DNA from: Patescibacteria group bacterium
Lineage (GTDB): Bacteria; Patescibacteria; ABY1; JAGPKW01
Assembly (NCBI GenBank): GCA_021735565.1
Contig: JAIPGT010000002.1
Span: forward strand, 1-29,384
DNA length: 29,384 bases
Reading direction: 5' to 3'
The notes under the pieces are model-generated. The model saw only the letters and a list, made by a program, of their open reading frames with translations, was not told the origin of the DNA and did no database searches. The position numbers and the translations under genes are program-made. Below are positions 20,368 to 22,909 of the stretch, piece after piece; the first letter of the stretch is position 1; every line of letters begins with the position of its first letter.

Positions 20368-20484
20368 ATAAAAATATAATATTATTTTATTATAACACGC
20401 CAAAAAATAATCACCATATAAAAATACACATTAAATAACCCAAAAAAACGTGCAATTTTATATAAAAACATTAATTGATAAATA

Positions 20485-20514
20485 TTGTGGGAACGCGCCG
20501 AGGCGCGTTCCAAC
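20485..20514 (+). repeat. Dispersed palindromic element, copy 5
   Basis: TGTGGGAACGCGCC...GGCGCGTTCCAACA, a nearly perfect inverted repeat. Its left flank (20427-20484) shares CACATTAAAT, AACGTGCAA and ATTAATTGA with the flank of copy 2 (740-800), so the mobile unit may extend at least 55 nt to the left. Confidence 0.75.
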
Positions 20515-20537
20515 AAACAAAACATTAATTTCCAAAC

Positions 20538-20684
20538 AAAAAAAGTAGCAACCAATTCACCGCCTATTAGCTAAGCATTTGAATAAATTCAATTCTCATT
20601 TAAAGATACTAGCTAAAAAGAAAGGAGGAGGATCTATTTAGTTTTCTCTACTAATAGGCAGTGAACTAATCACTACTCTTACAA
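20538..20684 (-). ncRNA. Candidate structured RNA with anti-Shine-Dalgarno-like loop
   Basis: Bases 20676-20651 and 20570-20545, read on the - strand, form a 26-bp stem with no unpaired base: 20 Watson-Crick pairs and six G-U pairs. On the + strand those six would be A-C mismatches, which fixes the strand. Seven U follow directly (20544-20538), so the stem can act as the RNA's own intrinsic terminator. The 80-nt interior includes a 5-bp hairpin UUGAA/UUCAA (near 20581-20594) and, at 20634-20618, GAUC-CU-CCUCCUUUCU. This matches the usual 3' tail of bacterial 16S rRNA (GAUC-A-CCUCCUUUCU) except for one A replaced by CU. A possible 5-bp AU stem (20641-20637 with 20617-20613) would present it as a loop. 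Size is about 147 nt if the promoter below is right. I do not recognise it as a known family. Confidence 0.75.
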
Positions 20685-20690
20685 TAAAAA

Positions 20691-20717
20691 TGTATAATAA
20701 ATATAAATAAAAGTCAA
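20691..20717 (-). promoter_or_regulatory. Possible promoter for the structured RNA
   Basis: On the - strand TTGACT (20717-20712) is followed after 15 bases by TATACA (20696-20691), resembling -35 and -10 boxes. The spacing is shorter than the ideal 17 and the -10 is only partly consensus. It lies between the stop of the VirD4-like gene and the RNA, and predicts a 5' end near 20684, just ahead of the long stem. Confidence 0.4.
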
Positions 20718-20719
20718 AT

Positions 20720-22909
20720 TTAATTTTTCAAATCTAAATTTTGCCCCTTTTCTAATGATAGCTTCTTAGGCTTATTTTTATTTTTATTAAGATTTTTACT
20801 ATCTTCAGTAAAAACACTTTTTAATGAAACATATTCTATATCATTTTTTTCATCTATTTTTTCATCAATAATATTTTTTGATTCATTTTCTGTACGAACA
20901 GGAGAAGGAGCTTGTCCTATCCCTACATTATTATTTTCCTTTTTTGGTAAGATTTCATGATTTTTTTCATCATTTTTATTAATATTTATATCATTTTCAT
21001 AATTTTTTTTGTTTAATGATATTTTTTTATAAAACTCCCCCATTTTATTTAATTCTATTTTTTTTGATTCATTTTCTAACTTAATATCATCTGCAATACC
21101 TAAAATACAATCAGAAATATTAGAATCAGAAGAATTGTTTAAAGTTTTTTTCTTCTTTTTTTTCTTCTTTTTCTTTTTTTTATTTAACACATTTTCATTC
21201 ATTTTTTCATTTTTCTGTACGGACGCACCATGTTGGAACGCGCCACGGCGCGTTCCCACATCATTATTATCATTTTTTTCATCAATTTTTATATCAATTT
21301 TTTTATCATTCTTTATTTCATGATTTTCATGATTTTTTTCAACTTCATTAATTGGGCGAATACTGTTCGCCCCTACAACATTTTTTTCTTTTTTTACATT
21401 ATCGTTTTCTTTTTTACTTTTTTTACCTTTTTTAGCTTCAGGAATAAGCCCAGATTTAACCTTTTTTAAACAATCAACACAATAAATAGGCCTAACACCA
21501 TCAGGTTTAAAAGGAACTTCCATAGGAACACCACAAACCCAACAATTAGATTTATGTGTTTCAACTTTTTCTTTAGATTTTTCAGAATTTCCAGAAGATT
21601 TTTTATGATCATTTCCATTTTCTGAAGATAAAGTCCAAGTACTAATAATATCTTCAATTTCAGATCTTGAATGCGAATATTTATTTCTAGAAAAATTAAT
21701 AGCTTCCAAAGAATTATTAATCTCTGGATTTATCATAGAAGGTAATGTTGAACAACTAAAAGATCTTGAAACTACTCCATCAATTAAAAGCTTAATCAAA
21801 ACATTCCATTTAGGGATATTAACAAGATCATCAATATTAAAATCAGGTAAAAATTCTTTTTCCAAAACTTCAGCATCTTGAGGCCCAACTCTAAAAGCTA
21901 TTAAAGTTCCTACATTACCAAAAACAGCAGCAGCAACATTTTCTGGAAGTTGCTCAATATATTGGTGAGCCAAATTTAAACAAAGCCTATATTTTCTAGC
22001 TTCAGACAAAATATCAGCAAAAGCTTCTGTTGCAAAGTTTTGAAATTCATCAACATATAAATAAAAATCTTTTCTTTCAGACTCAGGTATATCAATTCTA
22101 CTCATAGCAGCAAGATATAGTTTTGTGATAATCATAGAACCTAAAAGAGAAGAATTATCTTCACCAATTTTACCTTTTGATAAATTAACAAGAATAATAC
22201 TATTTTCATCCATAGCCTTTCTTAAATCTAAAGTAGATTTAGATTGTCCTATAATATTACGGATCAAAGAATTAGATAAAAATTGACCAACTTTATTTTG
22301 TATAGGACCAATAATTGTAGGAAGTTCTCTGCTATTGTAATGTTCATATTCAGTTGACCAGAAAGCCTTAACAACTGGATCTTTAACCTGAGAAACGACA
22401 TAATCTCTATAAGTTTTATCAACTAAAATTCTAGTGACTCCAAGAAGAGTGCTACCAGGAACATACATTAAAGATAAAATAGAATTTCTTAAAATATATT
22501 CCATTCTAGGCCCCCAAGAATCAGCCCATATTTTTTTAAAAACACCAATAAGACCTGAAGCTATAAGATGCCTTTTTGAATCATCTTCACCACCTTCTAA
22601 TATATTAAAAGCGATAGGAAAATCTAAATCAGAAGGATCAAAATATACAACATCATTTATTCTAGATTTAGGAATAGTTTTAATAATAGCCTCAGCAAGA
22701 TCTCCATGAGGATCCATAACACAGCATCCTTTACCATTATTAATATCCTGAATAATCATATTCTCTAAAAGACAAGACTTACCAGAACCAGACTTCCCTA
22801 TTGCATAAAGATGTCTTCTTCTATCGTCTTGTTTGATACCAAACTTTTTTCTCATGTGTCTGAAATTAGTTTGGCCAATAATAGTTATATTACTTTCTTC
22901 TTCTATCAT
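20720..22909 (-). CDS. VirD4/TraG-like type IV secretion coupling ATPase with zinc ribbon and repeat-bearing tail
   Basis: 729 residues. The ATPase core has Walker A GKSGSGKS (38-45), Asp-Pro-His-Gly-Asp (66-70), and Walker B Tyr-Leu-Tyr-Val-Asp-Glu (283-288) followed by Phe-Gln-Asn-Phe and Ala-His-Gln-Tyr. This is the pattern of the DNA-pump/coupling ATPases common in CPR genomes. No N-terminal membrane helices are visible. Next is a CxxC-x17-CxxC zinc ribbon (C456, C459, C477, C480). Residues ~490-729 are low-complexity Lys/Asn/Glu/Asp sequence with a run of 12 Lys (577-588). Three GC-rich islands in the tail encode out-of-character peptides at ~511-521, ~550-565 and ~662-673; they coincide with palindromic repeat copies translated in frame. 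Likely role: moving DNA or protein through a pilus or secretion channel, with the pilin at 28527 a possible partner. Confidence 0.88.
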   Translation of the reverse strand: MIEEESNITIIGQTNFRHMRKKFGIKQDDRRRHLYAIGKSGSGKSCLLENMIIQDINNGKGCCVMDPHGDLAEAIIKTIPKSRINDVVYFDPSDLDFPIAFNILEGGEDDSKRHLIASGLIGVFKKIWADSWGPRMEYILRNSILSLMYVPGSTLLGVTRILVDKTYRDYVVSQVKDPVVKAFWSTEYEHYNSRELPTIIGPIQNKVGQFLSNSLIRNIIGQSKSTLDLRKAMDENSIILVNLSKGKIGEDNSSLLGSMIITKLYLAAMSRIDIPESERKDFYLYVDEFQNFATEAFADILSEARKYRLCLNLAHQYIEQLPENVAAAVFGNVGTLIAFRVGPQDAEVLEKEFLPDFNIDDLVNIPKWNVLIKLLIDGVVSRSFSCSTLPSMINPEINNSLEAINFSRNKYSHSRSEIEDIISTWTLSSENGNDHKKSSGNSEKSKEKVETHKSNCWVCGVPMEVPFKPDGVRPIYCVDCLKKVKSGLIPEAKKGKKSKKENDNVKKEKNVVGANSIRPINEVEKNHENHEIKNDKKIDIKIDEKNDNNDVGTRRGAFQHGASVQKNEKMNENVLNKKKKKKKKKKKKTLNNSSDSNISDCILGIADDIKLENESKKIELNKMGEFYKKISLNKKNYENDININKNDEKNHEILPKKENNNVGIGQAPSPVRTENESKNIIDEKIDEKNDIEYVSLKSVFTEDSKNLNKNKNKPKKLSLEKGQNLDLKN
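20891..20927 (+). repeat. Palindromic element inside the ATPase gene, copy 6
   Basis: TGTACGAACAGGAGAAGG... ending TATCCCTACA, with imperfect arms around GGAGAAGGAGCTTGTCC. It is translated as Val-Gly-Ile-Gly-Gln-Ala-Pro-Ser-Pro-Val-Arg-Thr on the - strand. It shares the TGTAC edge with copy 7. Confidence 0.55.
21145..21181 (+). repeat. 37-nt pyrimidine-only tract in the ATPase gene
   Basis: Every base from 21145 to 21181 is C or T, with runs of seven, eight and eight T. On the coding (-) strand it is a purine tract encoding the poly-lysine stretch. Such runs are prone to replication or transcription slippage. Confidence 0.8.
21216..21260 (+). repeat. Palindromic element inside the ATPase gene, copy 7
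   Basis: The core at 21231-21260 is TGTTGGAACGCGCCACGGCGCGTTCCCACA, a GC-rich palindrome matching copies 1, 3 and 5. An extra TGTACGGACGCACCA lies to the left; TGTAC also begins copy 6. The 45-nt unit is exactly 15 codons and keeps the reading frame. Confidence 0.75.
21351..21377 (+). repeat. Palindromic element inside the ATPase gene, copy 8
   Basis: GGGCGAATACTGTTCGCCC palindrome ending in CTACA, the GGGCG subtype related to copy 2. Translated on the - strand as Val-Val-Gly-Ala-Asn-Ser-Ile-Arg-Pro-Ile-Asn. Confidence 0.75.

Follow-up and report, generated by a model that had tools for sequence, protein, structure and literature searches.

The stretch between positions 20,538 and 20,684 of the window (the whole 29,384-nucleotide DNA that was analysed) raises the question of whether it holds an RNA gene, how widely such a gene is conserved, and what might be the role of a loop that recalls the 3' end of 16S rRNA.

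Fold and anatomy of the RNA element

Folding was evaluated for both strands of the region 20,530-20,700. The minus strand reaches a predicted energy of -51.8 kcal/mol, as against -30.7 +/- 3.5 for its shuffles (z -6.07, none out of 200 being as good); the corresponding figures for the plus strand are -29.8 kcal/mol, z -2.70 and 2 out of 200. The placement of an RNA gene on the minus strand, proposed in a preliminary description of the locus, is borne out by this fold and by the conserved homologues reported below. The stem, given there as an uninterrupted one of 26 bp with six G-U pairs, is indeed uninterrupted, but both counts were too low: in the minimum-energy structure 30 consecutive pairs, eight of them G-U, join 20,679-20,650 to 20,542-20,571. 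The element rises above chance because it is conserved: the nearest genome has a 97% copy, and diverged copies share the fold.

The part of the RNA gene covered by the covariance models described below spans 20,547-20,681 of the minus strand, on which all the features of the RNA lie; it scores 86 bits with model R2 and 149 bits with R1, of which the window is itself a training sequence. The conserved part of the closing stem, P1, was placed by the pairing of helix 1 and its mapping to the window, with the 5' strand at 20,650-20,674 and the 3' strand at 20,547-20,571. Above it stand P2 (20,647-20,649 paired with 20,604-20,606), the GAA half (20,644-20,646) and the AGUA half (20,607-20,610) of a putative bulged-G (loop E-like) motif, and P3, mapped to the window approximately, at 20,636-20,642 and 20,612-20,618. 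The loop region at 20,634-20,619 reads, with its edges, GAUCCUCCUCCUUUCU, and contains an invariant CCUCC core. The P4 hairpin region (20,573-20,597) is short in the window; in the family it is well paired, and some copies do without it.

The stem foot and the T run at 20,538-20,546 are the likely 3' end. The run itself, already pointed out in the preliminary description, is present in the sequence; a scan of the window with a loop limit of 8 found no terminator, and TTTTT lies at most 60 nt from the RNA end in 43 of 70 copies. The promoter-like boxes that had been claimed upstream (TTGACT-17-TACATT, 20,717-20,689) are also there, and recur in the 97% copy, but taken alone they are not above chance (1 found, 2.1 expected). 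It is among the homologues that the excess appears: a TTGACA-TATAAT-like promoter is found within 100 nt upstream of 119 out of 170 copies, whereas mononucleotide shuffles give 16.7 and the downstream controls 15 of 168.

In the window the RNA is flanked by a glycosyltransferase and by an ORF of 729 aa that carries a type IV secretion coupling-protein domain; all three share one strand. The protein encoded at 20,720-22,909 (minus strand) combines the type IV secretion coupling domain with a treble-clef zinc finger, and an ORF resembling it adjoins the RNA copy of locus L061. Near-palindromic repeats of the form GGAACGCGCC...GGCGCGTTCC occur twice, at 20,487-20,514, in the intergenic DNA beside the RNA, and at about 21,228-21,258, within the 729-aa ORF.

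Homologues, covariation and genomic setting

When 38 related genomes were searched at the DNA level, the nearest of them (G001) yielded the 97% copy, and two diverged copies surrounded by other flanks came from the window's own family, besides further short matches. The window and these three relatives have similar folds, in which one sequence or more shows a change on both sides at 16 of 40 pairs, and the four were used to build covariance model R1. Against 380 genomes of the class, R1 matched 45 at E<=1, weak matches included. Model R2, at E<=0.01, matched 142 of the 380 sampled class genomes and 42 of 379 genomes sampled from the phylum, five being common to the class sample; all together these correspond to 179 genomes, 142 of the class and 37 more from other classes of the phylum, with three weak matches among them (G351, G356 and G700, E 2.8e-4 to 0.0078). 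Among the matches listed, where a genome has a second one it is mostly the other strand of the same place or a tandem copy. About three fifths of the class sample gave no match under the scans run; these genomes need not be free of the RNA, because the R2 scans used strict filters and scored eight candidates per genome. A permissive search with model R3 of 35 R2-negative genomes yielded 7 matches, 4 of them credible; the others (L129-L131) were dropped as plain hairpins without the loop. An exact DNA pattern was also run over the genome collection, giving 19 records, 18 of which were confirmed by R2 and are labelled Doudnabacteria, Kerfeldbacteria, Kuenenbacteria, Parcubacteria, Patescibacteria group or plain bacterium. 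These records cannot be used to assess the conservation of the loop, since the pattern itself required CCCTCCT. Two pattern matches are not members of the family: a Chloroflexi contig (L105), unconfirmed by R2, and a viral contig (L111), with a 16-bit match elsewhere in it.

Compensatory changes were evaluated on two alignments. The first, A5, was produced by MAFFT from 28 R1-matched copies and the window (29 sequences) and was not fitted to the structure. In it 44 of 47 pairs change on both sides, so the covariance-model search suggested in the preliminary description did bring up covarying homologues. Paired cells amount to 84.3%, versus 67.9% in shuffled alignments, which ignore relatedness, and 37-48% for slid structures, which preserve it; the covariation score is 0.592, versus 0.277 for the shuffles, none of 500 being as high. 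P3 pairs poorly on A5 (53%) because its length varies. In the second alignment, A6, containing 70 sequences fitted to the model, with a mean pairwise identity of 52%, the share of paired cells is 91.3%, and double-sided changes are seen at 48 of 49 pairs. The strand is indicated by the wobble pairs: on the RNA strand the fitted alignment holds 493 G-U versus 64 A-C cells, and P1 of the unfitted one 122 versus 5.

Across the family P1 is 25-30 pairs long; 93.6% of the cells of helix 1 are paired, with changes on both sides in 24 of its 25 pairs. Its sequence is conserved in the upper half, and near the top it is almost fixed, though paired (G-C at the second pair from the top and A-U at the third, each in 69 of 70 copies). 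P1 is followed by the three pairs of P2, GAA opposite AGUA, P3 with the loop, a short linker and P4. GAA is found in 51 and AGUA in 48 of 70 copies, both being exact in 35; facing each other, they resemble a bulged-G (loop E) motif. By eye, this region is made of ordinary pairs in L030, L044, L048 and L050. The second tandem copies of L027, L135, L146 and L217, and the copy of L128, from an R2-negative genome, lack P4 and retain the CCUCC loop, and P1-P3 with the loop therefore seem to be the core of the RNA. In a mutual-information scan all but one of the 26 strongest couplings fall within the fold, the exception extending P4, and no additional tertiary pair is found among them. A weaker coupling links the first pair of P2 with the pair at the foot of P4 (A6 model positions 33-73 and 80-111).

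Neighbouring genes were identified by tblastn, with one query for each gene and flanks of up to 1.5 kb, and named from their translations rather than by a family search. In 124 of 170 loci pth lies downstream of the RNA on the opposite strand; upstream, also on the opposite strand, are dprA (88 loci), mfd (34) or topA (17). None of the six query genes was found in 20 of the 170 loci, and the window has no neighbourhood of the pth/dprA type. The simplest reading of this arrangement would be a separate gene inherited in place. As far as sequence comparison goes, the gene of a structured RNA, which genomes usually carry at a single place, is shown to be conserved in sequence, in fold and often in location over much of Patescibacteria, and the covariance model can be used to annotate it. 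A tRNA-linked role was rejected: L026, L030, L044 and L050 have tRNAs nearby, but ARAGORN finds tRNAs in 9 of 71 loci. Pairing of the loop with the start of dprA was also set aside; over the 200 nt upstream of the RNA, GGAGG on the opposite strand shows no clear excess (11 and 8 per 100-nt bin, versus 2-11 in the other upstream bins).

The loop and its likeness to known RNAs

In keeping with the preliminary description, the loop proved to be conserved, unlike much of the stem, whose sequence varies. CCUCC is found in 170 of 170 copies examined (70/70 and 100/100), a set made of the window and 169 of the 179 matched genomes that leaves out G001, G053, G144, G257, G262, G292, G351, G356, G660 and G700; the G001 copy has the same loop as the window, and CCUCC is also present in 4 further copies from R2-negative genomes. 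Shuffling of the arm region produced it in 1,972 of 34,000 cases. Since the models were trained with the loop included, its recovery is partly built in; most matches, on the other hand, probably score well above anything the loop could contribute. Over seven bases the loop reads CCCUCCU in 145 of 170 copies (62/70 and 83/100). Its predicted unpaired probability averages 0.84, versus 0.31 for other pyrimidine hexamers (n 400), and is at least 0.5 in 149 of 170 copies; in the remaining 21 it is predicted to be mostly paired.

The preliminary description saw in this loop a mimic of the 16S rRNA 3' end. The likeness holds for the CCUCC core, the only part shared family-wide; the longer match, with GAUC and UUUCU, is peculiar to the window's own family, and at the position of an A in 16S the usual loop carries C. 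The 16S genes themselves end in the ordinary tail GGAUCACCUCCUUUCU in 9 of 10 carriers of the RNA. In G001, the genome nearest to the window, the tail reads GGAAUUACUCCUUUUU, without CCUCC, versus GGAUCACCUCCUUU, an alteration that may be real or an assembly fault; the 16S gene concerned is that of L115, and the RNA copy of the same genome retains CCUCCUCC. The ordinary tail is followed by CUAAGGAG or CUAGGGAG in nine out of nine cases (L112-L114 and L116-L121), and these trailers are able to pair with CUCCUU.

That no described family fits, as had been stated, was confirmed within the searches made. At the gathering cut-offs of Rfam 15 the window had no match and 20 loci matched only through tRNAs in their flanks; in 20,400-20,800, with E up to 10, seven weak matches were obtained, all far below the cut-offs, and L042 had no match at E<=5. 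The models for SRP RNA (RF00169, at gathering score), 6S RNA (RF00013) and tmRNA (RF00023) do not match the window or the 20 loci; tmRNA is found over the cut-off elsewhere in the genome in 12 of 16 carriers. Among the matches listed from open-licence PMC papers, large RNA-motif surveys aside, no RNA of this kind in these bacteria, or with this loop, was described.

The closest parallel is provided by the alpha-r14/NfeR1 RNAs of Rhizobiales (SmelA075), in which a CCUCC-containing, ultraconserved motif is exposed in hairpin loops on variable stems; these RNAs consist of three or four hairpins, with CCUCCUCCC in each of them (PMC10746234, PMC3927594), and silence a message through the CCUCCUCCC loops (PMC10746234). 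The Patescibacteria RNA displays instead a single loop, carried by an arm that tops a long stem. It usually occupies one locus in a genome, frequently in a syntenic position, and its hosts are bacteria unrelated to these, in which strong Shine-Dalgarno sites are few. With one CCUCC loop per RNA, it does not fall within alpha-r14/NfeR1, taken as RNAs with CCUCCUCCC in at least three hairpin loops. The family appears to be new, the principle of an anti-Shine-Dalgarno loop being already known from Rhizobiales.

Possible roles of the RNA

Strong Shine-Dalgarno sites are uncommon in the genes examined. Taking the first ATG as start codon, a Shine-Dalgarno-like five-mer precedes none of 23 ORFs in the window and 37 of 379 in the 170 loci, where the positional excess is 82 five-mers, overlaps counted, versus 8.2 expected. 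When longest ORFs are considered, any four-mer is found in 31 of 275, versus 22 in the control, and GGAGG in 14, versus 3. AGGAG precedes 2 of 82 pth starts; at several pth genes, TATAAT stands only a few bases ahead of the ATG, as in leaderless messages. In four whole genomes the pattern AGGAGG-N4-9-ATG occurs 31-49 times, versus 8-18 for the reversed pattern, an excess of 23 to 32 sites per genome. Many such sites precede short ORFs, sometimes in clusters, in G001 (L262-L281) and G003 (L240). For ten small proteins led by these sites (nine of G001, one of G003), searches of Pfam and PHROGs gave nothing at E<=0.01; the AGGAGG-led genes of G001 are not only accessory, since a CTP-synthase-like gene is among them.

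The explanation that we tentatively prefer, with less than even confidence, is that of a trans-acting anti-Shine-Dalgarno RNA with a small regulon, whose CCUCC loop would pair with AGGAGG. The RNA would be transcribed as a stable molecule, the long closing stem providing the stability; the arm would present the loop to Shine-Dalgarno sequences, and pairing would lower, or otherwise modulate, translation of the minority of messages led by them. As most genes examined have no strong Shine-Dalgarno site, the loop would address a small set of messages. The preliminary description had already suggested that Shine-Dalgarno-bearing messages might be sequestered, or else that the RNA might bind ribosomal protein bS1 or uS2. 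The conserved extra C of the loop speaks against simple Shine-Dalgarno pairing and is not explained by it: in G132, whose loop is CCCUCCU, G follows AGGAGG, by eye, in only 2 of the 22 sites listed out of 31. No covariation between loop and targets was seen. Messages are also not the only possible partners, since GGAGG cores occur inside 16S as well. A bolder form, which we regard as improbable, makes of this a housekeeping RNA as old as several Patescibacteria classes, which would read the few Shine-Dalgarno-led messages and so separate core from accessory or foreign expression. If so, core genes would mostly have given up Shine-Dalgarno initiation, the targets would often be small accessory genes, and G001 would have lost CCUCC from its 16S tail and kept it twice over in its RNA. 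Patescibacteria make up a large part of bacterial diversity and have small genomes, with no SRP in the carriers tested. An RNA kept by such genomes, often at a fixed place, is likely to be important; it could provide an entry to translation control where strong Shine-Dalgarno sites are uncommon.

Somewhat less likely than the anti-Shine-Dalgarno reading, though the nearest to it, is that the RNA is the scaffold of a ribonucleoprotein, with CCCUCCU as a protein or tertiary-contact site that resembles the anti-Shine-Dalgarno by convergence. It would account for the conservation of seven loop bases, rather than five or six (CCCUCCU in 145/170), for the near-fixed sequence of the paired top of P1 and for the often fixed location; an exposed core that coincides with the anti-Shine-Dalgarno core in every one of the 170 copies examined would, however, be most simply a base-pairing seed. 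We consider unlikely a contact with 16S rRNA during ribosome assembly or initiation, in which the RNA would titrate a CCUCC-binding factor or pair with GGAG-containing 16S or precursor sequences. Possible partners do exist: AAGGAG or AGGGAG, able to mask the tail, follows it in 9 of 9 ordinary ends, the G001 trailer also has UAGGGAG, and GGAGGAAGG and CGGGAGGC lie inside 16S in 8 and 6 of 10 carriers, respectively. In addition, most CPR bacteria lack Era, the binder of GAUCACCUCC (PMC10582724). Yet GGAGG is missing from the interior of 16S in G002 and G003, which belong to the window's own family, only one 16S locus out of nine contains the seven-base complement AGGAGGG, the RNA does not conserve GAUCA, and trailer and loop types do not match by eye; moreover, a similar 16S trailer is found in other bacteria.

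A diverged SRP or 6S RNA is hardly probable at all. RF00169 and RF00013 are unmatched in 16 of 16 carriers (E<=0.001), so those RNAs are either missing or unrecognised there, although for 6S the test is weak, only 5 of 14 controls being detected. With SRP RNA it would share a rod shape and a housekeeping-like character, and AGUARCC faintly resembles the SRP motif AGCAGCC; with 6S RNA it shares the long closing stem and a similar size. The tip of the Patescibacteria RNA, however, lacks the SRP tetraloop, no genome out of 380 of the class exceeds the RF00169 cut-off (one reaches E 0.07), and the RNA-binding part of Ffh, the M domain (SRP_SPB, PF02978), is detected in 0 of 16 carriers and 14 of 14 controls. 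SRP thus appears to be absent from the carriers, so that the RNA would not be an SRP RNA with its usual partner, and this identity is mostly refuted; SRP loss in Parcubacteria has been published (PMC4508563). As to 6S, the centre of the RNA consists of structured arms and not of the open 6S bubble. Very unlikely as well, if a little less so, is a cis-regulatory leader, whose loop would mask the Shine-Dalgarno of the next gene. In the first 200 nt downstream, on the strand of the RNA, GGAGG is more frequent than elsewhere (1.93 per kb versus 0.69), being present there in 58 of 170 loci versus 27 and 21 in control windows, and in 30 of 170 it is followed by a start and an ORF of at least 30 aa within 260 nt; but the other 140 loci have no such ORF, downstream pth is on the opposite strand in 124, and the downstream ORFs are, by eye, mostly unrelated to one another. 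Several of the GGAGG-led ORFs in the 30 loci look lipoprotein-like by eye.
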